This document shows positions 1 through 60,582 of a DNA stretch of 64,000 nucleotides, piece after piece. Numbering within the stretch: position 1 is the first letter of the stretch; every line of letters begins with the position of its first letter. The notes beneath the pieces are model-generated. The model made no database searches and was not told where the DNA came from. It saw only the letters and a program-made list of their open reading frames with translations. A program made the position numbers and the translations under genes. The stretch is from Bacteroidales bacterium (GTDB taxonomy: Bacteria; Bacteroidota; Bacteroidia; Bacteroidales; ML635J-15): positions 62,001 to 126,000 of the forward strand of contig JAGCDJ010000042.1 in the NCBI GenBank assembly GCA_017651185.1, given 5' to 3'.

Positions 1-2
1 TC

Positions 3-977
3 ATATTGCTCTACATGTTCATATCACTGATGGAGGACTCGGGCTATATGTCGCGAGCCGCCTTCCTTATGGACAAGATGATGCACGGAATGGGACTTCA
101 CGGCAAATCGTTCATACCAATGGTAATGGGCTTCGGATGCAACGTACCTGCAATAATGGCAACACGCTCCATCGAAAGCAAAAGCAGCCGACTGATAACA
201 ATACTTGTAGTGCCGTTCATGTCGTGCAGTGCGCGATTACCTGTGTATCTGCTTCTTGCTGGCGCATTCTTCCCCAGTTACGCCGCCACAATAATGATTT
301 GTCTATATCTGCTTGGAATATTGGTGGCTGTAATTACCGCCAAACTTCTGCGACTGACGGCATTCAAACAGGACGAAACCCCATTTGTAATGGAACTTCC
401 ACCCTACCGCTGGCCTACATTACGGGCAACTTTGAAGCACATCTGGGAAAAATGCTACCAGTACATAAAGAAAATAGGAACGGTAATACTTCTTGCCTCG
501 GTAATAACCTGGGTACTAAGTTATTATCCGCACACTGAGACTTCCGACACAAACATTGCACAAAACGAAACGGAAACAACAAGCGCCATCGAACAGCAAT
601 ACGAGAATTCCTACCTCGGCATGATTGGAAAATTCATTGCTCCAGTTATGTCGCCAATGGGATTCGACTGGAAGATAAGCGTAGCGGTACTGTCGAGCAT
701 ACCGGCAAAGGAAATTGTAGTAAGCACGCTGGGCGTTTTGTATGGCAGCGAAGATGAGGACCTTGGCGAAGCCCTGCAAAAATCCGGCGACCTGAACATT
801 GCCTCGGCATTGGCACTAATGGTATTCATGCTGCTGTTCTTCCCTTGCATAGCAACTATTGGAGCAGTTGCAAGCGAAACCAAAAAGGTAAAATGGGCAT
901 TTTTCTCGGTATTCTACAACACGGCTGTTGCATGGATTGCGGCGTATGTCACATATCTTATTGCCAATTTATTCTAA
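3..977 (+). CDS. feoB: FeoB C-terminal fragment, mirror copy cut by the window edge
   Basis: This is the last ~325 residues of the ferrous iron transporter FeoB, in frame from the window edge (ATA at 3) to the stop at 975-977. It is identical to the end of the complete feoAB gene at 9620-12019 and carries only transmembrane Gate and core segments. It has no G domain and no start. It is the left-arm image of the palindrome, so it is probably not a separate gene or a pseudogene. An in-frame TTG near its start is internal to the real gene. Confidence 0.9.
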   Translation: MLLYMFISLMEDSGYMSRAAFLMDKMMHGMGLHGKSFIPMVMGFGCNVPAIMATRSIESKSSRLITILVVPFMSCSARLPVYLLLAGAFFPSYAATIMICLYLLGILVAVITAKLLRLTAFKQDETPFVMELPPYRWPTLRATLKHIWEKCYQYIKKIGTVILLASVITWVLSYYPHTETSDTNIAQNETETTSAIEQQYENSYLGMIGKFIAPVMSPMGFDWKISVAVLSSIPAKEIVVSTLGVLYGSEDEDLGEALQKSGDLNIASALALMVFMLLFFPCIATIGAVASETKKVKWAFFSVFYNTAVAWIAAYVTYLIANLF

Positions 978-1007
978 GTTCACTGATTTATAATAAGCCA
1001 TAAACCT

Positions 1008-1045
1008 AATTCGGACGGTGCAAAAGCCGTCCGAATTATTTTTTA
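1008..1045 (+). terminator. Intrinsic terminator of the mirrored feoB
   Basis: An 11-bp perfect stem (AATTCGGACGG with its complement, loop TGCAAAAG) is followed on the plus strand by ATTTTTT. It is the image of the hairpin at 9560-9589. Confidence 0.8.
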
Positions 1046-1068
1046 CTAATTAATAGCAATGTTTTACG

Positions 1069-2766
1069 CTATTGCACTTTTAGGAATTTCGACTTGATGA
1101 TTTTGCCATCCTCTGTACTCAACCTGACGACATATTGCCCTGCCTCCAACGAAGAGACATCAACAGACATCATAGGATTATCTTCCGACATCACCAACCT
1201 GCCTGTCATATCGTAGATTTCCAATGCGGCAAAACGCATTTCTCCACCAGCAATATACAACCTGTCCGACACGGGATTCGGGAACACTGAAACCCCATTG
1301 ATGCCACTGGCTTCCACAAATTCAGGGTCATAGCCCTCAACAAGTTGCACATCAAGCGATTCTACGGCATTGTCGGTAATATCGACAGAGAATGTCTTGT
1401 GAATGTAACCGTCGGCATAGAACGAAACGTTGTAGTGTCCCGCCTTCAAGAACCTGTAATACTCTCCGGTTGGAAGAAATGAATAAACTTGCGAATTGAA
1501 ATAGTCGTGTCCATCAATGAAAACCATTGCCTTTAAAGGTTCGCCAGTCACCGAATCGGTAACAAAACCGCGAAGTCCAAATGTTGCACGCTTCATATAT
1601 GCAAGCATAGGCGGAATATTGCGCGATGTGTAGCTTGGCAGCAAGTCGTTCGACAACTTCTTGTCGATGCTCAACTCCAAGGTCACCTCACGGCAACGCT
1701 TAAAGTAGTTCATGTAGTCCTGACGGCTGCCTGTAATCGTGTACCAAGCATAACCATTTATATAACCGTTCTGATAGTCGGATGTCATATACGACTGGTC
1801 GTGGCAGACCTCGCGTGCCAATTCTACATATTCTGTCGCAACAAACCTCCACCAGGCATCGTCAGCAGGTAGTGCAGGGTCAGTATCAAACGGGTAGTTA
1901 ACAACCTCGGCGCCACTATGAAGATTGGCAGACAGAACAAACTTATGTTCATCGGCATAACGCATGAACGCTTCGGTTTCGAAAGCATAGTCCTTTTCGT
2001 CGGGATGTTCGCCAGCAATAGCATCAGGAAAATTGCGGTTCATGTCGATGATGTGATCGAAACCATCACCGTTGCGCGTATAACGCATGGAATAATCCAC
2101 ATTGTCAGCACCGCCAATATAAGTTCCTTCAGGATTCGACAGCGGATTAATGAAAATCTCCATATTGTTAACCAGATTCGTGACTTCCGAATCAGTTCCA
2201 TAATCGCGCAACAACTTATCAATAAGCCTCAGGCAAACCATTCCGCCAATCAACTCATCGCCATGCATCTGACCGCCGAGGAAAAATTCAGGTTCTGTCT
2301 CATCGTCGTTCACATTGTCGGATATTTTTACCGAGAGCAACTTATAACCCGACAATGTTGTCCCAATGGTATCCAACTTGCAAATTTCGGGATAAGTTTC
2401 GGCAAAATATTGCATCATTTCACAGTAAATGCCGTAGGTTGGATAGCGGTTCCAGTTGAACATATCCGAAAGCGACCCTGCCATAAGCAAGTCCGACTTA
2501 CGCTCGTAGTATTCGCGCACTGGCTCGCAATCGATTCCGAAACTGCGAAAACTTGCAAACTCTTGCCTATTGGCGTATGCGTAGCAGTAGCCATCACGGT
2601 AAGCATCAATTGAAATTATATTGGAAAATTCGTTAAGCCGCTGCGGTTCAACGCGAAATCTAAAATACAATTCGCCCCTACTATCAAGGATTTCCTTTGG
2701 CGACAACTGCGACATTGCCATCAGAGCGAGCAGAATGAAAACAAATGTACTGTACAACCTTTTCAT
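1069..2766 (-). CDS. Secreted M14 zinc carboxypeptidase with T9SS sorting domain (left-arm copy)
   Basis: This 565-residue protein is identical to the one at 7831-9528, where the domains are described. The only difference is orientation: this copy is in the left arm of the palindrome. It should be counted once unless reads prove both arms. Confidence 0.85.
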   Translation of the reverse strand: MKRLYSTFVFILLALMAMSQLSPKEILDSRGELYFRFRVEPQRLNEFSNIISIDAYRDGYCYAYANRQEFASFRSFGIDCEPVREYYERKSDLLMAGSLSDMFNWNRYPTYGIYCEMMQYFAETYPEICKLDTIGTTLSGYKLLSVKISDNVNDDETEPEFFLGGQMHGDELIGGMVCLRLIDKLLRDYGTDSEVTNLVNNMEIFINPLSNPEGTYIGGADNVDYSMRYTRNGDGFDHIIDMNRNFPDAIAGEHPDEKDYAFETEAFMRYADEHKFVLSANLHSGAEVVNYPFDTDPALPADDAWWRFVATEYVELAREVCHDQSYMTSDYQNGYINGYAWYTITGSRQDYMNYFKRCREVTLELSIDKKLSNDLLPSYTSRNIPPMLAYMKRATFGLRGFVTDSVTGEPLKAMVFIDGHDYFNSQVYSFLPTGEYYRFLKAGHYNVSFYADGYIHKTFSVDITDNAVESLDVQLVEGYDPEFVEASGINGVSVFPNPVSDRLYIAGGEMRFAALEIYDMTGRLVMSEDNPMMSVDVSSLEAGQYVVRLSTEDGKIIKSKFLKVQ

Positions 2767-2785
2767 TGGATAACATTTTGATGTG

Positions 2786-2793
2786 CAAACTTA
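2786..2793 (-). promoter_or_regulatory. Bacteroidetes -7 box (TAAGTTTG) for the M14 gene, left arm
   Basis: This is the image of 7804-7811 and matches the TAnnTTTG -7 consensus 19 nt before the start codon. Confidence 0.5.
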
Positions 2794-2810
2794 CAAAAAA
2801 ATATCACAAC

Positions 2811-2839
2811 AAAAAAGGGAAAGCATACGCCTTCCCTTT
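2811..2839. terminator. Terminator hairpin after the EF-G paralogue, left arm
   Basis: This is the image of 7758-7786. The stem AAAGGGAA / TTCCCTTT is flanked by a T run in the direction of the EF-G gene. Confidence 0.75.
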
Positions 2840-2862
2840 CTGTTTGTATGAAAAATAATCTT

Positions 2863-5016
2863 TTAGTCTTCTTCCTGCTTGTTTGCTTCGTATTCCTTGA
2901 GCAATGCATCCTGTACATCGGGTGGAACCTGCTGGTATTCAGCAAAGCTCATGCTGTACATTGCACGACCGCCGGTATTAGCGCGAAGTGAAGTAGAGAA
3001 TGTTGCCATTTCTGCCAGAGGAACGCGAGCGGTAATCTTCTGGAATCCCTTTTCGCTCGACATACCCTGAACGATAGCACGACGACCATTCAAGTCGCTG
3101 ATAACATCACCCATTCTGTCGCCTGGAACTAGAACTTCGAGGTCGTAAACAGGTTCCATAATCTTCGGTCCTGCAAGTTTGAATGCCTGGCTGAATGCGT
3201 TACGAGCTGCAATGATGAATGCGATTTCCTTTGAATCAACCGGGTGCATCTTACCATCGTAAACAAATACTCTGATGTCGCGAGCGTAAGAACCAGTCAA
3301 AGGACCTTCTTCCATCTTCTGCATCAAGCCCTTCTTAATTGCTGGCATGAAGCTAGCATCGATAGCACCACCTACTACGCAGTTGTAGAACTCGAGGCGT
3401 CCACCCCACTTCAGAGGAATTTCTTCCTTTGCCTTGATGGTCATAACCTGTTCCTTACCGTCAATCTTGAACTTACCAGTTGTGTCAACACCTTCTACGA
3501 TAGGTTCAATGAGGAGTGCAACTTCACCAAACTGACCAGCACCACCCGACTGCTTCTTGTGACGGTAGGTTGCATTAGCTACCTTGGTAATAGTTTCGCG
3601 GTATTCGATTCTTGGCTTGTCGAACTGAGCTGCAATCTTGTAAACATTGTCAAGGTGCCACTTCATAATATTAATATGGTATTCGCCCTGACCCATAACG
3701 ATGAGCTGACGCAATTCGATGTTGTTTTCCGACAACAAGGTTGGATCTTCGTCCTTCATGCTGTTGATAGCAGCGATGAGCTTTTCAGATTCGCTTTCGT
3801 TAACTGCCTTTACTGCTACTCTGTACTTGTATGCAGGGTACTGGATTGCAGGTATTTCGTTGTCTTCGCCTATTGCAACGAGGGTCTGTCCGTACTTTGT
3901 GCCTTTCAGTTTAACGGTAGCACCTATATCACCAGCAGCGAGAGAATCAACTTTGTTCTTGGTCTTACCTGCGCAAGCGTAGATAGCCGAAAGTCTTTCC
4001 TTAGTGTTGGTCTTCGGGTTGTAGAGGTCGATACCTTCGGTAATGGTACCGCTGAGAACCTTGAAGTAGCAAATTTCACCGATATGCTCTTCGGTTGAGG
4101 TCTTGAAGATATAAAGAACCGGCTTTGCGCTTGAGTCGCACTTGATTTCGCGTCCTTCGGTATCCTTAATGTGCTCCATCTTGTCTGGAGAAGGAACTAC
4201 ATCAGCGATGAATTCCATAAGTCTCTTAACACCGAGGTCGGTGCGAGCGTTCACGCAGAAAATCGGGAAAATACCTCTTGCTGGCAAACCCTTTACGATA
4301 CCTCTCATCATTTCTTCTTCGGTAAGAGTGTCGTTCGAGAAGAAGATGTCCATGAGTTCTTCGTCTGCCTCAGCAGCGATTTCGATAATCTGGTTCTTGT
4401 ATTCCTGTGCCTTGTCTTCGTATTCAGCAGGGATGTCCTTAATTTCGATATTGTTGCCATTCTGAACATACATCTTGTGAGAAATCACATCGATGAATGA
4501 AGTGCAGCCAACACCAGGATTTACTGGGAACTGAGCGACAACAGCGTTAGGACCAAAAGCTTCACGGATAGATTCGATTGTGTGGTCGAAGTTAGTCTTT
4601 TCGTGGTCGAGCTGGTTGAGGGCGATAATCATAGGCTTACCTGCCTGTTCGAGGTAACGACCGTGGATTTCGGTACCAACTTCAACGCCGTTCTGAGCGT
4701 TAACGACCATAAGTGCTATATCTGTAGCGAACAAAGAAGAAACAACGCCACCGATGAAATCGTCCATACCCGGGCAATCGAGGATGTTGAACTTGGTGTT
4801 GCCGAGTTCCGAATACATTACGGTTGAATAAAGCGAGTTACCGTTTTCCTGCTCGATGAGACGGTAGTCCGATACGGTGTTCTTGCTGGCGATGTCGCCC
4901 TTGCGGGTGATAACTCCGCCAACCTGCAACATGCTTTCAGCCAAAGTCGTCTTTCCTGCGCCAGAATTACCGACCAGCGAAATGTTTCTAATTTGTTGGG
5001 TTTGATAATTTTTCAT
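2863..5016 (-). CDS. Elongation factor G paralogue, EF-G2-like (left-arm copy)
   Basis: This 717-residue protein is identical to the one at 5581-7734, which carries the full description. Being the image of that gene in the palindrome, it is probably the same locus assembled twice. Confidence 0.85.
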   Translation of the reverse strand: MKNYQTQQIRNISLVGNSGAGKTTLAESMLQVGGVITRKGDIASKNTVSDYRLIEQENGNSLYSTVMYSELGNTKFNILDCPGMDDFIGGVVSSLFATDIALMVVNAQNGVEVGTEIHGRYLEQAGKPMIIALNQLDHEKTNFDHTIESIREAFGPNAVVAQFPVNPGVGCTSFIDVISHKMYVQNGNNIEIKDIPAEYEDKAQEYKNQIIEIAAEADEELMDIFFSNDTLTEEEMMRGIVKGLPARGIFPIFCVNARTDLGVKRLMEFIADVVPSPDKMEHIKDTEGREIKCDSSAKPVLYIFKTSTEEHIGEICYFKVLSGTITEGIDLYNPKTNTKERLSAIYACAGKTKNKVDSLAAGDIGATVKLKGTKYGQTLVAIGEDNEIPAIQYPAYKYRVAVKAVNESESEKLIAAINSMKDEDPTLLSENNIELRQLIVMGQGEYHINIMKWHLDNVYKIAAQFDKPRIEYRETITKVANATYRHKKQSGGAGQFGEVALLIEPIVEGVDTTGKFKIDGKEQVMTIKAKEEIPLKWGGRLEFYNCVVGGAIDASFMPAIKKGLMQKMEEGPLTGSYARDIRVFVYDGKMHPVDSKEIAFIIAARNAFSQAFKLAGPKIMEPVYDLEVLVPGDRMGDVISDLNGRRAIVQGMSSEKGFQKITARVPLAEMATFSTSLRANTGGRAMYSMSFAEYQQVPPDVQDALLKEYEANKQEED

Positions 5017-5066
5017 ACAATTTCTTTAATTTTTATTAATGAATATATTTTCTAATTTTTGGGTTG

Positions 5067-5097
5067 CAAAGATAATTACAATTAATTGATAATGCAA
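5067..5097 (-). promoter_or_regulatory. Promoter of the EF-G paralogue, left arm
   Basis: This is the image of the promoter at 5500-5530 (TATCTTTG box at 5067-5074, TTG at 5095-5097). Confidence 0.55.
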
Positions 5098-5179
5098 GGG
5101 AAAAAATAATTGAATGTGGAGACAAAAAATTTTGCATTTAGAGCCCTACAGATTATTGTTTCTTGCATTTTTCTTACAG

Positions 5180-5200
5180 ATGCTGAAACAAGTTCAGCAT
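5180..5200. repeat. Dispersed hairpin repeat ATGCTGAA/TTCAGCAT, left arm
   Basis: This is a 21-nt imperfect palindrome with an 8-bp stem. It is the mirror of 5397-5417, and an exact copy also occurs at 12119-12139 outside the palindrome. Confidence 0.8.
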
Positions 5201-5284
5201 GACATACAGAGGAGGGACTTGGTAGGGTGTTGGTACGAGGTTGATACGAAGCAGGGCTTTGTTCAAATTTATTTCGCAAAAAAT

Positions 5285-5312
5285 ATAGGGGCGCAATGCA
5301 TTGCGCCCCTAT
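5285..5312. repeat. 28-nt perfect palindrome forming the axis of the inverted repeat
   Basis: The core GCAATGCATTGC is flanked by complementary GGGGC / GCCCC arms and AT ends. Related elements are dispersed in this genome: a half copy at 12173-12189 (ending in GCGCCCCTAC) and relatives at 14976, 15018, 20456 and 61752. It is thus probably a natural repeat element at which the assembly folded back. Confidence 0.85.
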
Positions 5313-5396
5313 ATTTTTTGCGAAATAAATTTGAACAAAGCCCTGCTTCGTATCAACCTCGTACCAACACCCTACCAAGTCCCTCCTCTGTATGTC

Positions 5397-5417
5397 ATGC
5401 TGAACTTGTTTCAGCAT
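5397..5417. repeat. Dispersed hairpin repeat ATGCTGAA/TTCAGCAT, right arm
   Basis: This element is identical to 12119-12139, with TGTC before it and CTG after it in both places. It is an intergenic hairpin element of unknown function. Confidence 0.8.
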
Positions 5418-5499
5418 CTGTAAGAAAAATGCAAGAAACAATAATCTGTAGGGCTCTAAATGCAAAATTTTTTGTCTCCACATTCAATTATTTTTTCCC

Positions 5500-5530
5500 T
5501 TGCATTATCAATTAATTGTAATTATCTTTG
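5500..5530 (+). promoter_or_regulatory. Promoter of the EF-G paralogue
   Basis: TTG at 5500-5502 and TATCTTTG at 5523-5530, about 20 nt apart, fit the Bacteroidetes -33 / -7 pattern. This leaves a 5' leader of about 45 nt before the ATG at 5581. Confidence 0.6.
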
Positions 5531-5580
5531 CAACCCAAAAATTAGAAAATATATTCATTAATAAAAATTAAAGAAATTGT

Positions 5581-7734
5581 ATGAAAAATTATCAAACCCA
5601 ACAAATTAGAAACATTTCGCTGGTCGGTAATTCTGGCGCAGGAAAGACGACTTTGGCTGAAAGCATGTTGCAGGTTGGCGGAGTTATCACCCGCAAGGGC
5701 GACATCGCCAGCAAGAACACCGTATCGGACTACCGTCTCATCGAGCAGGAAAACGGTAACTCGCTTTATTCAACCGTAATGTATTCGGAACTCGGCAACA
5801 CCAAGTTCAACATCCTCGATTGCCCGGGTATGGACGATTTCATCGGTGGCGTTGTTTCTTCTTTGTTCGCTACAGATATAGCACTTATGGTCGTTAACGC
5901 TCAGAACGGCGTTGAAGTTGGTACCGAAATCCACGGTCGTTACCTCGAACAGGCAGGTAAGCCTATGATTATCGCCCTCAACCAGCTCGACCACGAAAAG
6001 ACTAACTTCGACCACACAATCGAATCTATCCGTGAAGCTTTTGGTCCTAACGCTGTTGTCGCTCAGTTCCCAGTAAATCCTGGTGTTGGCTGCACTTCAT
6101 TCATCGATGTGATTTCTCACAAGATGTATGTTCAGAATGGCAACAATATCGAAATTAAGGACATCCCTGCTGAATACGAAGACAAGGCACAGGAATACAA
6201 GAACCAGATTATCGAAATCGCTGCTGAGGCAGACGAAGAACTCATGGACATCTTCTTCTCGAACGACACTCTTACCGAAGAAGAAATGATGAGAGGTATC
6301 GTAAAGGGTTTGCCAGCAAGAGGTATTTTCCCGATTTTCTGCGTGAACGCTCGCACCGACCTCGGTGTTAAGAGACTTATGGAATTCATCGCTGATGTAG
6401 TTCCTTCTCCAGACAAGATGGAGCACATTAAGGATACCGAAGGACGCGAAATCAAGTGCGACTCAAGCGCAAAGCCGGTTCTTTATATCTTCAAGACCTC
6501 AACCGAAGAGCATATCGGTGAAATTTGCTACTTCAAGGTTCTCAGCGGTACCATTACCGAAGGTATCGACCTCTACAACCCGAAGACCAACACTAAGGAA
6601 AGACTTTCGGCTATCTACGCTTGCGCAGGTAAGACCAAGAACAAAGTTGATTCTCTCGCTGCTGGTGATATAGGTGCTACCGTTAAACTGAAAGGCACAA
6701 AGTACGGACAGACCCTCGTTGCAATAGGCGAAGACAACGAAATACCTGCAATCCAGTACCCTGCATACAAGTACAGAGTAGCAGTAAAGGCAGTTAACGA
6801 AAGCGAATCTGAAAAGCTCATCGCTGCTATCAACAGCATGAAGGACGAAGATCCAACCTTGTTGTCGGAAAACAACATCGAATTGCGTCAGCTCATCGTT
6901 ATGGGTCAGGGCGAATACCATATTAATATTATGAAGTGGCACCTTGACAATGTTTACAAGATTGCAGCTCAGTTCGACAAGCCAAGAATCGAATACCGCG
7001 AAACTATTACCAAGGTAGCTAATGCAACCTACCGTCACAAGAAGCAGTCGGGTGGTGCTGGTCAGTTTGGTGAAGTTGCACTCCTCATTGAACCTATCGT
7101 AGAAGGTGTTGACACAACTGGTAAGTTCAAGATTGACGGTAAGGAACAGGTTATGACCATCAAGGCAAAGGAAGAAATTCCTCTGAAGTGGGGTGGACGC
7201 CTCGAGTTCTACAACTGCGTAGTAGGTGGTGCTATCGATGCTAGCTTCATGCCAGCAATTAAGAAGGGCTTGATGCAGAAGATGGAAGAAGGTCCTTTGA
7301 CTGGTTCTTACGCTCGCGACATCAGAGTATTTGTTTACGATGGTAAGATGCACCCGGTTGATTCAAAGGAAATCGCATTCATCATTGCAGCTCGTAACGC
7401 ATTCAGCCAGGCATTCAAACTTGCAGGACCGAAGATTATGGAACCTGTTTACGACCTCGAAGTTCTAGTTCCAGGCGACAGAATGGGTGATGTTATCAGC
7501 GACTTGAATGGTCGTCGTGCTATCGTTCAGGGTATGTCGAGCGAAAAGGGATTCCAGAAGATTACCGCTCGCGTTCCTCTGGCAGAAATGGCAACATTCT
7601 CTACTTCACTTCGCGCTAATACCGGCGGTCGTGCAATGTACAGCATGAGCTTTGCTGAATACCAGCAGGTTCCACCCGATGTACAGGATGCATTGCTCAA
7701 GGAATACGAAGCAAACAAGCAGGAAGAAGACTAA
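5581..7734 (+). CDS. Elongation factor G paralogue (EF-G2-like) lacking the catalytic His
   Basis: The 717 residues have EF-G domain order: a GTPase domain with P-loop GNSGAGKT (16-23), then beta-barrel, domain IV and domain V. The switch II motif reads DCPGM (80-84) where canonical EF-G has DTPGH, so the histidine that activates hydrolytic water is replaced by Met. G4 is NQLD (134-137) instead of NKxD. Canonical EF-G sits in the str operon with rpsL/rpsG, and none of those genes is here. EF-G2 of Bacteroides thetaiotaomicron is reported to promote translation without GTP hydrolysis and to matter during starvation and gut colonisation. Assignment to that group is inferred from the altered motifs and taxon. 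It has its own promoter and a terminator after the stop. Confidence 0.85.
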   Translation: MKNYQTQQIRNISLVGNSGAGKTTLAESMLQVGGVITRKGDIASKNTVSDYRLIEQENGNSLYSTVMYSELGNTKFNILDCPGMDDFIGGVVSSLFATDIALMVVNAQNGVEVGTEIHGRYLEQAGKPMIIALNQLDHEKTNFDHTIESIREAFGPNAVVAQFPVNPGVGCTSFIDVISHKMYVQNGNNIEIKDIPAEYEDKAQEYKNQIIEIAAEADEELMDIFFSNDTLTEEEMMRGIVKGLPARGIFPIFCVNARTDLGVKRLMEFIADVVPSPDKMEHIKDTEGREIKCDSSAKPVLYIFKTSTEEHIGEICYFKVLSGTITEGIDLYNPKTNTKERLSAIYACAGKTKNKVDSLAAGDIGATVKLKGTKYGQTLVAIGEDNEIPAIQYPAYKYRVAVKAVNESESEKLIAAINSMKDEDPTLLSENNIELRQLIVMGQGEYHINIMKWHLDNVYKIAAQFDKPRIEYRETITKVANATYRHKKQSGGAGQFGEVALLIEPIVEGVDTTGKFKIDGKEQVMTIKAKEEIPLKWGGRLEFYNCVVGGAIDASFMPAIKKGLMQKMEEGPLTGSYARDIRVFVYDGKMHPVDSKEIAFIIAARNAFSQAFKLAGPKIMEPVYDLEVLVPGDRMGDVISDLNGRRAIVQGMSSEKGFQKITARVPLAEMATFSTSLRANTGGRAMYSMSFAEYQQVPPDVQDALLKEYEANKQEED

Positions 7735-7757
7735 AAGATTATTTTTCATACAAACAG

Positions 7758-7786
7758 AAAGGGAAGGCGTATGCTTTCCCTTTTTT
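7758..7786 (+). terminator. Intrinsic terminator after the EF-G paralogue
   Basis: The stem AAAGGGAA / TTCCCTTT is extended by GC / GC around GTAT and followed by TTTTTT. It starts 23 nt after the EF-G stop. Confidence 0.8.
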
Positions 7787-7803
7787 GTTGTGATATTTTT
7801 TTG

Positions 7804-7811
7804 TAAGTTTG
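7804..7811 (+). promoter_or_regulatory. -7 box (TAAGTTTG) of the M14 carboxypeptidase
   Basis: It matches TAnnTTTG. TTTTTTG ends at 7787, giving a slightly short -33 spacing. It lies 19 nt before the ATG at 7831. Confidence 0.55.
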
Positions 7812-7830
7812 CACATCAAAATGTTATCCA

Positions 7831-9528
7831 ATGAAAAGGTTGTACAGTACATTTGTTTTCATTCTGCTCGCTCTGATGGCAATGTCGCAGTTGTCGCCAA
7901 AGGAAATCCTTGATAGTAGGGGCGAATTGTATTTTAGATTTCGCGTTGAACCGCAGCGGCTTAACGAATTTTCCAATATAATTTCAATTGATGCTTACCG
8001 TGATGGCTACTGCTACGCATACGCCAATAGGCAAGAGTTTGCAAGTTTTCGCAGTTTCGGAATCGATTGCGAGCCAGTGCGCGAATACTACGAGCGTAAG
8101 TCGGACTTGCTTATGGCAGGGTCGCTTTCGGATATGTTCAACTGGAACCGCTATCCAACCTACGGCATTTACTGTGAAATGATGCAATATTTTGCCGAAA
8201 CTTATCCCGAAATTTGCAAGTTGGATACCATTGGGACAACATTGTCGGGTTATAAGTTGCTCTCGGTAAAAATATCCGACAATGTGAACGACGATGAGAC
8301 AGAACCTGAATTTTTCCTCGGCGGTCAGATGCATGGCGATGAGTTGATTGGCGGAATGGTTTGCCTGAGGCTTATTGATAAGTTGTTGCGCGATTATGGA
8401 ACTGATTCGGAAGTCACGAATCTGGTTAACAATATGGAGATTTTCATTAATCCGCTGTCGAATCCTGAAGGAACTTATATTGGCGGTGCTGACAATGTGG
8501 ATTATTCCATGCGTTATACGCGCAACGGTGATGGTTTCGATCACATCATCGACATGAACCGCAATTTTCCTGATGCTATTGCTGGCGAACATCCCGACGA
8601 AAAGGACTATGCTTTCGAAACCGAAGCGTTCATGCGTTATGCCGATGAACATAAGTTTGTTCTGTCTGCCAATCTTCATAGTGGCGCCGAGGTTGTTAAC
8701 TACCCGTTTGATACTGACCCTGCACTACCTGCTGACGATGCCTGGTGGAGGTTTGTTGCGACAGAATATGTAGAATTGGCACGCGAGGTCTGCCACGACC
8801 AGTCGTATATGACATCCGACTATCAGAACGGTTATATAAATGGTTATGCTTGGTACACGATTACAGGCAGCCGTCAGGACTACATGAACTACTTTAAGCG
8901 TTGCCGTGAGGTGACCTTGGAGTTGAGCATCGACAAGAAGTTGTCGAACGACTTGCTGCCAAGCTACACATCGCGCAATATTCCGCCTATGCTTGCATAT
9001 ATGAAGCGTGCAACATTTGGACTTCGCGGTTTTGTTACCGATTCGGTGACTGGCGAACCTTTAAAGGCAATGGTTTTCATTGATGGACACGACTATTTCA
9101 ATTCGCAAGTTTATTCATTTCTTCCAACCGGAGAGTATTACAGGTTCTTGAAGGCGGGACACTACAACGTTTCGTTCTATGCCGACGGTTACATTCACAA
9201 GACATTCTCTGTCGATATTACCGACAATGCCGTAGAATCGCTTGATGTGCAACTTGTTGAGGGCTATGACCCTGAATTTGTGGAAGCCAGTGGCATCAAT
9301 GGGGTTTCAGTGTTCCCGAATCCCGTGTCGGACAGGTTGTATATTGCTGGTGGAGAAATGCGTTTTGCCGCATTGGAAATCTACGATATGACAGGCAGGT
9401 TGGTGATGTCGGAAGATAATCCTATGATGTCTGTTGATGTCTCTTCGTTGGAGGCAGGGCAATATGTCGTCAGGTTGAGTACAGAGGATGGCAAAATCAT
9501 CAAGTCGAAATTCCTAAAAGTGCAATAG
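7831..9528 (+). CDS. Secreted M14 zinc carboxypeptidase with T9SS type A sorting domain
   Basis: The 565 residues begin with a signal peptide (1-20, cleaved near MAMSQ). The peptidase domain has the zinc motif HGDE (H168, E171), third ligand H283 in NLHSGAE, the NRNF substrate-binding Asn-Arg (243-245 region) and a catalytic Glu in TLELSIDKK. A carboxypeptidase-regulatory beta-sandwich follows (about 405-480). The last ~75 residues are a T9SS sorting domain (FPNP..., YDMTG, LEAGQY, ending KFLKV). It should be exported by Sec, then moved across the outer membrane by T9SS and cleaved or anchored there. It probably trims C-terminal residues of host or dietary peptides; specificity cannot be read. 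It is transcribed alone and is convergent with feoAB. Confidence 0.92.
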   Translation: MKRLYSTFVFILLALMAMSQLSPKEILDSRGELYFRFRVEPQRLNEFSNIISIDAYRDGYCYAYANRQEFASFRSFGIDCEPVREYYERKSDLLMAGSLSDMFNWNRYPTYGIYCEMMQYFAETYPEICKLDTIGTTLSGYKLLSVKISDNVNDDETEPEFFLGGQMHGDELIGGMVCLRLIDKLLRDYGTDSEVTNLVNNMEIFINPLSNPEGTYIGGADNVDYSMRYTRNGDGFDHIIDMNRNFPDAIAGEHPDEKDYAFETEAFMRYADEHKFVLSANLHSGAEVVNYPFDTDPALPADDAWWRFVATEYVELAREVCHDQSYMTSDYQNGYINGYAWYTITGSRQDYMNYFKRCREVTLELSIDKKLSNDLLPSYTSRNIPPMLAYMKRATFGLRGFVTDSVTGEPLKAMVFIDGHDYFNSQVYSFLPTGEYYRFLKAGHYNVSFYADGYIHKTFSVDITDNAVESLDVQLVEGYDPEFVEASGINGVSVFPNPVSDRLYIAGGEMRFAALEIYDMTGRLVMSEDNPMMSVDVSSLEAGQYVVRLSTEDGKIIKSKFLKVQ

Positions 9529-9551
9529 CGTAAAACATTGCTATTAATTAG

Positions 9552-9589
9552 TAAAAAATAATTCGGACGGCTTTTGCACCGTCCGAATT
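9552..9589 (-). terminator. Intrinsic terminator of feoAB
   Basis: An 11-bp stem AATTCGGACGG / CCGTCCGAATT (9560-9589) is followed on the minus strand by ATTTTTT. It lies between the convergent M14 and feoAB genes; the T run serves feoAB. Confidence 0.85.
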
Positions 9590-9619
9590 AGGTTTATGGC
9601 TTATTATAAATCAGTGAAC

Positions 9620-12019
9620 TTAGAATAAATTGGCAATAAGATATGTGACATACGCCGCAATCCATGCAACAGCCGTGTTGTAGAATACCGAGAAAAATGC
9701 CCATTTTACCTTTTTGGTTTCGCTTGCAACTGCTCCAATAGTTGCTATGCAAGGGAAGAACAGCAGCATGAATACCATTAGTGCCAATGCCGAGGCAATG
9801 TTCAGGTCGCCGGATTTTTGCAGGGCTTCGCCAAGGTCCTCATCTTCGCTGCCATACAAAACGCCCAGCGTGCTTACTACAATTTCCTTTGCCGGTATGC
9901 TCGACAGTACCGCTACGCTTATCTTCCAGTCGAATCCCATTGGCGACATAACTGGAGCAATGAATTTTCCAATCATGCCGAGGTAGGAATTCTCGTATTG
10001 CTGTTCGATGGCGCTTGTTGTTTCCGTTTCGTTTTGTGCAATGTTTGTGTCGGAAGTCTCAGTGTGCGGATAATAACTTAGTACCCAGGTTATTACCGAG
10101 GCAAGAAGTATTACCGTTCCTATTTTCTTTATGTACTGGTAGCATTTTTCCCAGATGTGCTTCAAAGTTGCCCGTAATGTAGGCCAGCGGTAGGGTGGAA
10201 GTTCCATTACAAATGGGGTTTCGTCCTGTTTGAATGCCGTCAGTCGCAGAAGTTTGGCGGTAATTACAGCCACCAATATTCCAAGCAGATATAGACAAAT
10301 CATTATTGTGGCGGCGTAACTGGGGAAGAATGCGCCAGCAAGAAGCAGATACACAGGTAATCGCGCACTGCACGACATGAACGGCACTACAAGTATTGTT
10401 ATCAGTCGGCTGCTTTTGCTTTCGATGGAGCGTGTTGCCATTATTGCAGGTACGTTGCATCCGAAGCCCATTACCATTGGTATGAACGATTTGCCGTGAA
10501 GTCCCATTCCGTGCATCATCTTGTCCATAAGGAAGGCGGCTCGCGACATATAGCCCGAGTCCTCCATCAGTGATATGAACATGTAGAGCAATATGATGTT
10601 TGGCAGAAATTCGGCAACAGCGCCAACACCGCCTATTATGCCGTCAACGACTAGCGAACGCCATGCACCTTCGGGCATAATTCCATTGAGATAATTGCCA
10701 AGAGCATCGAATCCTGCCGCAATCCAGTCCTGCGGATATGTACCCAACCAGAATGTTACGCTGAACATCAACCACATTACAATAACAAATAGCGGAAAAC
10801 CTAACCATTTGTTTACTATTAGCTTATCGAGGCGGCGGGTTTTCTTGTTGGCCTCGATATTGCCCTCGGTGTAGGTTTCGTGCAAAGCGCCAGAAATAAA
10901 ACCGTACTTTGCATCGCTGATAGCGGTTTCTGCATCAATGTCAAGTTGTTTTTTTACTTCTTCGGATGAAATCGTTGCTTGCTTTTCCAGTTTGTCGTAC
11001 GACTTGCTGTTTTGTAGCAGTTTCGCGACTTCCTTGTCGCCTTCCATCATCTTTATTGCCCAGTATCTGGCAGGGAACTGTTGCGGAAAATCTTCGGTTT
11101 CGTGAAGAATATCAGCAAGTTTCGAAATTTCTGGCTCCAATATTGTGCCGTAGTTTATGTGTACATGCCTTGCCGACTTGTTGGCGCCCTCGAACATGTC
11201 AATAATTGTATCGAGAAGTTTGTCGAGTCCTTTGCCTGTTTTTGCCACTGTCGGAACCATCGGGATACCAATCATTGAACCGAGGTTTTGGTAGTCGAGT
11301 TGTGCGCCTGTAGCTTCGAGTTCGTCGTACATGTTCAGTGCTACTACCACTCGCTGGCTCAAGTCGATTAGTTCGGTTGTGAGGTAAAGGTTGCGCTCGA
11401 GGTTTGAGGCAACAACAACGTTAACAATCACATCGGGCATTGATTCGAGCAGGTTGCGGCGTACGAACAGTTCTTCGGGCGAGTAGGCCGACAGCGAGTA
11501 AGTTCCGGGCAAGTCGGTAATGTTGAAATGGTAGCCCTTGTAGTTGAAGTGTCCTGTTTTTACATCCACAGTTACTCCGCTGTAGTTGCCCACATGCTCG
11601 TTGCCACCCGACAAAGCGTTGAACAGCGAAGTTTTTCCACTGTTGGGGTTGCCTACGAAGGCAATGTTTATGATGTTGCGCTGTGTGGTTTTGCTGCGTT
11701 TTGCTCCGCATGTCAATCCGCATGAGTCGCAGTCGGTGCAAGCGAAGAAGTTAGGCGCTTTTGCATCCTCGGCAGTAAGTACCGAGTTGGCTTCTGCTTC
11801 TGGCAGCACTTCGATGAGGTTGGCTTCGCTGCGGCGTAACAGCACATCGTAGCCCATTATGGTGTATTTTATCGGGTCGTTTAGCGGTGCATCGATGACC
11901 GATGTAACCTTGCGACCACGCACAAATCCCATCTCCATTATCCTTTTCCTGAACCCGCCGTGTCCCGAAACCTTGACGATAACGGCCGATTCTCCATTGT
12001 GCAGTTCCGATAGTTTCAT
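9620..12019 (-). CDS. feoB: FeoA-FeoB fusion, ferrous iron transporter
   Basis: I chose ATG at 12019 (799 residues) over the upstream ORF start at 12070 because the FeoA domain begins exactly there (MKLSELHNGES) and a promoter -7 box lies in the 5' extension. Residues 1-75 are a FeoA SH3-like domain. A linker holds a C-x2-C-x2-C-x3-C cluster (C94, C97, C100, C104). The G domain has P-loop GNPNSGKTS (123-131), DLPGTYS and NMYD, followed by the helical GDI region and the multi-pass core with two Gate domains. It imports Fe2+ across the inner membrane under low oxygen. The fusion is common in Bacteroidetes. A single-gene transcript with its own promoter and terminator is implied. Confidence 0.95.
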   Translation of the reverse strand: MKLSELHNGESAVIVKVSGHGGFRKRIMEMGFVRGRKVTSVIDAPLNDPIKYTIMGYDVLLRRSEANLIEVLPEAEANSVLTAEDAKAPNFFACTDCDSCGLTCGAKRSKTTQRNIINIAFVGNPNSGKTSLFNALSGGNEHVGNYSGVTVDVKTGHFNYKGYHFNITDLPGTYSLSAYSPEELFVRRNLLESMPDVIVNVVVASNLERNLYLTTELIDLSQRVVVALNMYDELEATGAQLDYQNLGSMIGIPMVPTVAKTGKGLDKLLDTIIDMFEGANKSARHVHINYGTILEPEISKLADILHETEDFPQQFPARYWAIKMMEGDKEVAKLLQNSKSYDKLEKQATISSEEVKKQLDIDAETAISDAKYGFISGALHETYTEGNIEANKKTRRLDKLIVNKWLGFPLFVIVMWLMFSVTFWLGTYPQDWIAAGFDALGNYLNGIMPEGAWRSLVVDGIIGGVGAVAEFLPNIILLYMFISLMEDSGYMSRAAFLMDKMMHGMGLHGKSFIPMVMGFGCNVPAIMATRSIESKSSRLITILVVPFMSCSARLPVYLLLAGAFFPSYAATIMICLYLLGILVAVITAKLLRLTAFKQDETPFVMELPPYRWPTLRATLKHIWEKCYQYIKKIGTVILLASVITWVLSYYPHTETSDTNIAQNETETTSAIEQQYENSYLGMIGKFIAPVMSPMGFDWKISVAVLSSIPAKEIVVSTLGVLYGSEDEDLGEALQKSGDLNIASALALMVFMLLFFPCIATIGAVASETKKVKWAFFSVFYNTAVAWIAAYVTYLIANLF

Positions 12020-58250: not shown

Positions 58251-58252
58251 GA

Positions 58253-59395
58253 TTACTTAATGTTCAAATAGTTAATATATCCATTCTCGTTGGATGTTAG
58301 TTCTTCGTCTCCTGCATATATGATTTGCGACGATATAAGGTCCTTGCCGATAAGTTTACGGAAATAGTCTAGGTTCTTGTAAAAATCGGTATTTATTATC
58401 TGTGCAGATTTGATTTCGTATGCTTTCAACTGCAATCCATCTTCCTGTATTACATCAACTTCGTGTTGAGATTTGTCGCGATAGAAAAACAAGTTGTTGT
58501 CGGTTCCTTTGTTGTATATGTTTTTTATCATATCCCCAACAACCATATTTTCAAAGATTTCTCCTCTAAGCGGATGTGTGTTAAGTTGCTCTGTGGTACG
58601 AATGCCTAACAGATAGCATACTAGCCCCGAATCGTAGAAATATATTTTTGCTTTTTTTGTCAGACGTTTGCCGATGTTGCGGTAAAAAGGTCTCAAATGG
58701 AAAATTATATATGAAGCTTCGAGTACATTAATCCACGACTGTATTGTGTGTATTGATACTCCTATTTCATTTGACAGTCCGGAGGCGTTGAATTCCGTAC
58801 CTACGCGCGCAGCACAAAGAACAACGAATCGTCTGAATTCATCCATATTCTTGATGTTCATAATCTGCATGATGTCGCGCTGCAAATATGTATTGTAATA
58901 TTGTCGATATGCGTCTTGGGGCGGAATCTCCTTTGCTATAACTCCCGGATAGAAACCTCTTAGCATAATATTATCTGTACCTATGGATTTGTCGTTGTCT
59001 GTTAGTTCGGAAAATGATAGAGGAAGTAGTGTTAAAAGGGCGGCGCGTCCTGCCAGCGATTGTGTTATGTTCTGCATCAATGAAAAATTGTTGCTTCCAG
59101 TGATAATGTAATGCAGGTCAGGATTTTCGTCAACCATTACCTGGATTATGGAAAAAATCTCAGGCATATTTTGTGCTTCGTCAATAATAAGACACCCTTT
59201 CCCGATTAAAAATTCTTTTCGTCTGACAGCAAATTCATCGCGAACAATTTCATCTTCAAGGTTGATGTATGAATAGTCTGGAAAAGCCATTTTGCAAAGA
59301 GTAGTCTTGCCTGATTGGCGAGGCCCTGTCAGTACAAGCACTTGAAAGTAGTTGCTTAATCGCAAAAGTTCTGTTTGTAAGTCTCTGTTATACAT
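58253..59395 (-). CDS. AAA ATPase with DUF4143 domain
   Basis: The 380 residues start at ATG 59395 (MYNRDLQTELLRLS); the longer ORF begins with TTG inside the promoter. P-loop GPRQSGKTT and Walker B CLIIDEAQNMPEIF are followed by ITGSNNFSL and the C-terminal DUF4143 nuclease-like domain (FFYRDKSQHEVDVIQ). The family is common in anaerobes, often as many paralogues. The role is unknown, with suggestions of mobile or toxin-antitoxin-like behaviour. It lies 2 nt upstream of miaA. Confidence 0.85.
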   Translation of the reverse strand: MYNRDLQTELLRLSNYFQVLVLTGPRQSGKTTLCKMAFPDYSYINLEDEIVRDEFAVRRKEFLIGKGCLIIDEAQNMPEIFSIIQVMVDENPDLHYIITGSNNFSLMQNITQSLAGRAALLTLLPLSFSELTDNDKSIGTDNIMLRGFYPGVIAKEIPPQDAYRQYYNTYLQRDIMQIMNIKNMDEFRRFVVLCAARVGTEFNASGLSNEIGVSIHTIQSWINVLEASYIIFHLRPFYRNIGKRLTKKAKIYFYDSGLVCYLLGIRTTEQLNTHPLRGEIFENMVVGDMIKNIYNKGTDNNLFFYRDKSQHEVDVIQEDGLQLKAYEIKSAQIINTDFYKNLDYFRKLIGKDLISSQIIYAGDEELTSNENGYINYLNIK

Positions 59396-59443
59396 GTGTT
59401 TATGTGTTTGTTTGTCAAAATTGAAGTATAACTTCACTTTTGG

Positions 59444-59477
59444 CAAAAGTACAAAATTAAAATGTAACTATAACAAA
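59444..59477 (-). promoter_or_regulatory. Promoter of the AAA/DUF4143 gene
   Basis: Minus-strand TACTTTTG (59444-59451) with TTTG at 59474-59477 (22-nt spacer), 48 nt before ATG 59395. It rules out the upstream TTG start. Confidence 0.55.
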
Positions 59478-59543
59478 ACCGAAAATTATTTTTTACATTT
59501 ACCAATTAATTTGATATAATTGCAATTTAAATGAATTTTTAGT

Positions 59544-60518
59544 ATGAAAAAATCGATTTTCTTATTGTTCGCAATCGTTTCCGCAGCGGGAATGATTGCG
59601 ATTAGCGGATGCGATAGACCAGAAACTTACACGGTTACTTTCAATCCCAACGGCGGTACAGGCACGATGCAGCCCCAGACCTTTACCGAGGGCGAGGCAC
59701 AGGCACTTACGCGCAATGCCTTTACCTACGACGGCTACACTTTTACGGGCTGGAATACCGTGCAGGGCGGCAGCGGTGCTTCTTATCCCGATGGATATAC
59801 CCTGACCGCAACCGCCGATATGACCTTGTACGCGCAGTGGACAAGCAATGGCACAAATCCGACACCAAGTCCAAGTCCTACACCTGGACCAGCGTCCCCA
59901 AACACCCTTAACGGACACGAGTTTGTTGACCTCGGTTTGCCAAGTGGACTATTGTGGGCTACCTGTAATGTGGGTGCAAATACGCCAGAAGAATACGGCG
60001 ACTACTTTGCTTGGGGCGAAACCGCACCCAAGGAAACCTATAGTTGGAGTACCTATAGATATTGTAATGGTGGAGATGGATACAATACACTCACCAAGTA
60101 TTGCAACAATGCCGAATATGGCAACAACGGCTTTACCGACAACTTGACCACCCTTGAAGCAAGCGATGATGCCGCCACCGCTAACTGGGGAGCAGGCTGG
60201 CGTATGCCGACAAGAGAAGAAATGCAGGAGTTGTTTGATAATTGCACTCACGAGTGGACAACACAAAACGGTGTAAGCGGACGATTGTTCACTGGACCTA
60301 ACGGCAATTCAATCTTCCTGGCCGCTGCCGGCTACCGCGTCGATAGTGGCCTCGACAATGCCGGGTCCTACGGCCTCTACTGGTCGTTGTCGCTCTATAC
60401 GGGCAGCCCTTACGGCGCGTGGCACCTCTACTTCTATTCGGGCACTTACGACATGAACGGCACTTACCGCTGCCTCGGGCTATCCGTGCGGCCCGTGTGC
60501 GTGTCGGTCCAGAACTAA
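59544..60518 (+). CDS. Surface lipoprotein with InlB repeat and DGR-like variable C-type-lectin domain
   Basis: The 324 residues begin with a lipoprotein signal (IAISGC, Cys23). Residues about 27-100 are an InlB B-repeat (YTVTFNPNGGTGTM...GYTFTGWNT...TLYAQW). A Pro/Ser/Thr linker (about 101-118) joins a C-terminal FISUMP/C-type-lectin-like domain (HEFVDLGLPSGLLWATCNVG, YFAWGETAPKE, WRMPTREEM). From residue 263 the DNA turns GC-rich and A-poor, and codons at exposed positions are mostly NNC/NNT, between constant words WS, LYF-S and SVRPV. This matches variable regions of DGR target proteins. No reverse transcriptase is in the window. It likely binds a ligand at the cell surface. Confidence 0.85.
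   Translation: MKKSIFLLFAIVSAAGMIAISGCDRPETYTVTFNPNGGTGTMQPQTFTEGEAQALTRNAFTYDGYTFTGWNTVQGGSGASYPDGYTLTATADMTLYAQWTSNGTNPTPSPSPTPGPASPNTLNGHEFVDLGLPSGLLWATCNVGANTPEEYGDYFAWGETAPKETYSWSTYRYCNGGDGYNTLTKYCNNAEYGNNGFTDNLTTLEASDDAATANWGAGWRMPTREEMQELFDNCTHEWTTQNGVSGRLFTGPNGNSIFLAAAGYRVDSGLDNAGSYGLYWSLSLYTGSPYGAWHLYFYSGTYDMNGTYRCLGLSVRPVCVSVQN
60330..60497 (+). other. Putative DGR variable region (VR)
   Basis: It runs from GYR (residue 263) to SVRPV (residue 318). By eye I count about 27 A in the last ~187 coding bases, far below the surrounding gene. Codons such as TAC, CTC, GAC, CAC, TTC, GGC, TGC occupy positions that are Asn (AAC) in template-like versions of this domain. The G/C-rich TCCGTGCGGCCCGTG at the end would suit an initiation-of-mutagenic-homing site. 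Confidence 0.6.
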
Positions 60519-60551
60519 ATGGATTTACGAATTACGATTATAGATTTACGG

Positions 60552-60582
60552 CAGTCGGCTTTGTTCGGCTGCTGTTTTTTTT
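60552..60582 (+). terminator. Intrinsic terminator of the DGR-like target gene
   Basis: CAGTCG pairs with CGGCTG (one G-T pair) around GCTTTGTT and is followed by CTGTTTTTTTT, 34 nt after the stop. Confidence 0.65.

Follow-up and report, generated by a model that had tools for sequence, protein, structure and literature searches.

A lipoprotein gene with a C-type-lectin-like end

The window, meaning the whole stretch of 64,000 nucleotides analysed here from a Bacteroidales genome (G000), contains a lipoprotein gene that ends in a repeat of the type varied by diversity-generating retroelements (DGRs). The features of the gene and of the slot that it occupies are collected in Table 1.

Table 1. 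Features of the lipoprotein gene and its surroundings (window coordinates)
Feature	Position	Strand	Basis
Lipoprotein gene with C-terminal DGR-type variable repeat	59544..60518	+	Open reading frame, ATG start, 324 aa
Putative lipoprotein signal peptide, lipobox ISGC, Cys23	59544..59612	+	Read from translation
InlB B-repeat / List_Bact_rpt stalk	59628..59837	+	PF09479; also TIGR02543
C-type-lectin-like (Lcl_C) domain, variable repeat at its C-terminus	59892..60515	+	PF07603, AlphaFold2 model, PDB matches
Variable repeat (VR), 201 nt, gap-free to the G024 template repeat (L071:8581-8781)	60312..60512	+	A-site bias, edges, control ratio
VR 3′ end, position expected for the initiation-of-mutagenic-homing site	60474..60503	+	27/30 identical to remote G024 target L152; putative role, by position only
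Insertion slot between miaA and amidase-like gene	58252..60574	.	VR gene and AAA ATPase gene here; comparison with relatives

Residues 29-98 of the protein match the List_Bact/InlB repeat (E 2.8e-14) and residues 134-318 match Lcl_C (E 8e-9). The original prediction had described a lipoprotein with an InlB repeat stalk and a GC-rich, A-poor break at the C-terminus. The signal around Cys23 and the PF09479 match agree with the former, and the composition agrees with the latter: GC is 0.51 and A 0.28 over residues 1-256, against 0.63 and 0.13 over the last 68 residues (257-324). Among 201-nt segments across the 64 kb, GC as high as in the VR occurs at a frequency of 1e-4, and A (or T) as low at 6e-4. 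The match to FISUMP/Fib_succ_major (TIGR02145) reached 21.3 bits, below the curated cut-off of 41.65, and the protein was not assigned to that family. The product would be exposed at the cell surface and may bind ligands.

The C-terminal domain (residues 117-324) was modelled confidently by AlphaFold2, with a mean pLDDT of 95.5. VIA-align matched the model to 11 PDB chains at Z>=5 (Z 5.0-7.2), ten of them C-type lectins or the Legionella Lcl C-terminal domain and the remaining one a Bacteroides fimbrial protein. The top-ranked solved structure was the Lcl C-terminal domain of Legionella pneumophila (PDB 8q4e; Z 7.2, rmsd 3.3, 107 residues aligned), which belongs to the same Pfam family (PF07603), at 22% identity. 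Foldseek alone gave no significant structural match for the domain model, and a sequence profile found no match among PDB chains. Because middling Z values (5-7) are weak singly, the assignment draws on the coherence of the list together with the Pfam match. The domain is confidently predicted to adopt a C-type-lectin fold, with the VR at the 3′ end of its gene as expected of a DGR target.

Beside the VR gene lies an AAA ATPase gene (58253-59446) that is 92.6% identical in G022 and absent in several relatives. Elsewhere in the window, positions 1-10597 form a perfect inverted repeat centred at about 5298/5299, with 5290 bases per side being exact reverse complements. Hits on the contig (C42; 134,596 bases, or 2 x 67,298) are symmetric, suggesting that the whole contig is palindromic and that the window gene is therefore present twice with identical sequence. 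The palindrome is most likely an assembly artefact.

The variable repeat and a template from the same genus

DGRs are natural machines for randomising receptor tips, in which a template is copied with errors at its adenines. Two genomes of the same genus, G024 and G009, hold a complete DGR with a template repeat (TR) directly upstream of a DGR-type reverse transcriptase (RT; L063 and L068), which is related to DGR-type phage RTs. In both, translation of the repeat before the RT frame gives GNRNDSSLNNAGSNGNYWSSSLNTDNPNNAWNLNFNSDNYNMNNNNRNYGLTVRPVCVSAQ, in which the variable positions read N. The genomes that carry it are Bacteroidales bins from the rumen or another ruminant gut. The G024 cassette (L071) comprises two Ser/Thr kinase genes, each with a domain of the same type at its end, a MutS-I-like ORF, the TR and the RT. 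Within L071:2218-9975, the MutS-domain-I-like ORF stands where Avd is usual, and the TR lies within an open frame that continues into the RT; MutS-like accessories of DGRs are known. The cis VR of G024 matches its TR at 144 of 145 non-A sites and keeps 32 of 56 A, a pair that by its sequence fits the classical picture of a DGR.

The TR of these cassettes (L071, L072) aligns without gaps to the VR of the window, and the variable domains are of the same C-type-lectin type. The G024 targets, however, are protein kinases beside the RT, in a different species, whereas the target in the window is a lipoprotein gene. Relative to the G024 TR, the window VR is changed at 30/56 A sites and 20/145 non-A sites (Fisher 2e-8); substitutions are thus concentrated at template adenines, the template here being that of another species. 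At codon positions 1 and 2 the counts are 29/54 for A and 5/80 for non-A. Fifteen of the 20 non-A differences fall at third codon positions, as expected for drift between species. Eighteen of the 20 template AAY codons were rewritten at positions 1 and 2, retaining a pyrimidine at position 3 in 18/18 and the exact third base in 16/18. The original prediction had pointed to NNC/NNT codons where a template would carry AAC, a pattern that recurs at all 18 rewritten positions.

The ratio of A to non-A change was 3.88 in the VR versus 1.03 in the preceding 399 bases of the adjoining domain, compared with relatives. Homology to the template has sharp edges, beginning at 60312 and ending at 60512, so that the segment first proposed (60330-60497) is real but slightly too short. 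Alignment with the nearest own-genome paralogue (L003) revealed a mosaic, with 84% identity in the stalk, 74% before the VR and 57% within it. The published criterion for DGRs in cis, that adenines account for over 75-80% of the mismatches between TR and VR, is meant for a TR of the same genome (PMC8144416, PMC7517822); against this TR of a foreign species, with an own-genome TR absent, 30/50 mismatches (60%) lie at A, below that level, or 29/34 (85%) at codon positions 1-2. Taken together, the A bias, the rewritten codons, the edges and the paralogue mosaic show that the segment is a copy of a TR placed into the gene. Judged from sequence, 60312-60512 very probably originated as a DGR variable repeat, in agreement with the original prediction and with an independent TR from G024 and G009.

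Reverse transcriptase and template in the genome and in mobile elements

No DGR RT was detected in the G000 assembly with Pfam, with the RT of the genus as a query or with a profile of 13 DGR RT sequences; the query and the profile both recovered G024 and G009 as positive controls. The TR pattern TGGAAYNTNAAYTTYAAY had no exact match in G000, and at 2 mismatches no excess over the reversed control. BLAST with TR1 against G000 gave at best 78% identity across a short segment and 76% across the greater part of the query, values typical of VRs but too low for a TR. This BLAST left out the window's own VR and so misses diverged VRs; a TR, with its A's intact, would lie closer to the query. The possibility of a hidden TR in G000 was rejected, since neither pattern nor BLAST gave a TR-like copy. 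A MutS-I-like accessory ORF of the genus cassette type was likewise not found in the assembly, which thus yielded neither a DGR-type RT nor an A-rich TR matching the VR at its non-A sites. The RT and TR that the original prediction had not seen in the 64 kb were thus not found in the whole assembly either. The prediction had named the lack of a DGR RT in the complete genome as a refutation, and for the assembly this lack holds. The assembly consists of 52 contigs and is 99.4% complete by markers. Metagenome bins often lack mobile elements, and one VR gene of G000 (L010) sits at a contig end.

Among viral and plasmid records, phage RTs were <60% identical to the RT of the genus, and an exact-seed scan of viral contigs, with that RT as query, found nothing. 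A scan with a TR pattern identified viral contigs, including rumen ones, with related RTs and their own but different TRs. IMG/VR contigs L200-L209 carry RTs of the same DGR family as G024/G009 with a different TR (..GNGNGTSWNNRGSNGNYWSSSLNSATNGRNLNFNSGGVNPQNNNNRFNGFAVRPVQ). A second TR pattern found no viral contigs. The phage TRs recovered match TR1 at 60-77 of 131 non-A sites, and TR1 DNA has no match among plasmid or phage records. Known phages, plasmids and viral contigs were rejected as the source of the RT, the RTs there being <60% identical or paired with different TRs.

Writing in trans and the age of the target

Within G000, 56 stretches match the gene at E<=0.001, about two dozen of which cover the lectin-like domain, and their non-A agreement with TR1 ranges from 0.88 down to 0.40. 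The most TR-like of these VRs share 0.78-0.83 of non-A sites with each other, versus 97-100% in currently written VR sets. The near-complete non-A match to a TR or to sister VRs that marks a remote target under current writing was not observed, the highest values being 0.83 in G000 and 0.91 in the genus. Since no G000 pair shares near-identical non-A sites, there is no sign of recent common writing in this genome.

Elsewhere in the genus, three G024 genes on separate contigs (L161, L163 and L166 on C3, C1 and C9) agree at 98.5-99.2% of their non-A sites and at 44-60% of their A sites, and their upstream parts are 57-67% identical. This is the pattern expected of one template writing remote genes, and by this sequence evidence trans writing happens in G024. 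The trio belongs to a second template class and the genes are unrelated; BLAST found no second template in the G024 assembly, and the TR pattern may miss that class. In G010 and G007, where no RT was detected, VR pairs agree at 0.977 and 0.969 of non-A sites with upstream parts 66-67% identical. Template-derived repeats occur in about half of the genomes of the genus, and this RT/TR in 2/26.

The suggestion that a DGR acts on the window gene from elsewhere is thus supported in that DGRs of the genus write remote genes, as in the G024 trio, but current action is not, given the absent RT, TR and MutS-I-like ORF and non-A agreement of at most 83%. We consider it probable, on the sequence comparisons, that the gene is an orphan target, likely an old one, whose DGR was lost or acts intermittently, and that it is not currently written. 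A DGR RT would have copied TR RNA, making random errors at its A's, and the resulting cDNA would have replaced the 3′ end of the lipoprotein gene, presumably in this lineage, randomising about 20 residues of the C-type-lectin tip on its InlB-repeat stalk. The writer would have been a cassette of the G024/G009 type (kinase-VR target, MutS-I-like ORF, TR and RT), which is absent from the G000 assembly. Writing would have been in trans and in the past, with the DGR since lost or only transiently present, and silent sites in the gene would have drifted since. With a foreign TR as reference, drift at non-A sites and divergence of the template are inseparable, and a fresh rewrite from a divergent TR would look alike.

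It is unlikely that the target is active now, written in trans by an RT and TR carried by a plasmid, a prophage or other DNA that the assembly lacks. The 52 contigs and the contig-end position of L010 leave room for such an element, rumen viral contigs do carry related RTs with TRs of their own, G024 shows trans writing, and both trans activity and incomplete loci have been published for Thiohalocapsa PB-PSB1 (PMC10907252). However, VR pairs in G000 fall well short of the non-A agreement of written sets, no RT, TR or MutS-I-like ORF was found in the assembly, and neither the phage TRs nor the plasmid and phage records provide a match for TR1.

There is a rather small chance that the gene was diversified in another species and acquired horizontally with its VR, with no DGR action in this lineage. 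In G007, G008, G009, G020 and G024, miaA lies directly against the amidase region, leaving the miaA-amidase slot empty; in G022 the slot holds the AAA ATPase gene alone, and in G002 and G010 other VR-family members. This variable occupancy marks a site of gain and loss, and makes transfer of an already-diversified gene a real rival. In a tree of non-A sites (topology only), the window VR groups with its nearest VRs, those of G022 and G010, and another G000 VR (L027) groups with G023, a mixing of species indicating that templates or targets have crossed between them. However, the rest of the gene is closest to its own-genome paralogue (77% protein identity), and upstream of the VR the G022 and G010 genes are only 75% identical, so neither genome recently supplied the gene as a whole.

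That the gene simply belongs to an ordinary Lcl_C/FISUMP-like paralogous family shaped by mutation and selection, merely resembling DGR templates, is highly improbable: the dozens of paralogous stretches and the weak TIGR02145 similarity would fit, but residue selection is not expected to produce the base bias of the VR over its adjoining domain, and against it also stand the exact third base retained in rewritten codons, the sharp edges of homology to a TR that itself lies in no target gene, and the agreement of remote genes at non-A sites without agreement at A sites. Diversification by selection only was rejected on this base-specific bias with its in-gene control.

The orphan target preferred here has partial counterparts among known systems. 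A DGR-diversified surface lipoprotein of Legionella reportedly carries a diversified C-type-lectin tip as well, in a cassette that acts in cis and includes an RT; it is not known to have an InlB repeat. Trans writing has been published for remote C-type-lectin variable proteins of cyanobacterial DGRs, whose genes, like that of the window, lie away from the DGR and have a 3′ end homologous to the TR, but whose genomes carry RT and TR, which the G000 assembly does not (PMC7517822). Thiohalocapsa PB-PSB1 likewise has targets lacking an RT of their own, protein kinases among them as in G024, and trans writing there was inferred from non-adenine identity; its VRs match a same-genome TR at all non-adenine sites, whereas the window VR matches none (PMC10907252). 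DGR surveys are known to miss remote targets (PMC8144416); standard ones start from the reverse transcriptase.

The apparent novelty lies in the genus as a whole: repeats derived from a template are widespread in it, the writer is rare, and the window gene stands as a clear orphan within its assembly. The literature search covered a limited open-access set, and priority is not established. Tentatively, the C-type-lectin genes of the genus could be standing receiver slots, rewritten in trans by DGRs that come and go on mobile elements. Template classes would then be common to several species, and most genomes would own targets but no writer. If this were general, hypermutated receptor repertoires would be much larger than RT counts suggest, and the idea that DGRs serve several species by coming and going would become testable.

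Two further loci in the genus were noted. In L092 (G008) and L104 (G021) the lectin-like domain is nearly identical (398/399 before the VR) within surroundings of 1.9 kb that are 92.6% identical, and four codons differ, three of them inside the VR; as a test of ongoing writing the pair was rejected for its few differences. In G021, a long RT protein (L062, C3:242809), whose C-terminal part may be hydrolase-like, adjoins a gene with a VR-like end (..SVRLVCNKEE), and this RT may be of the defence type.
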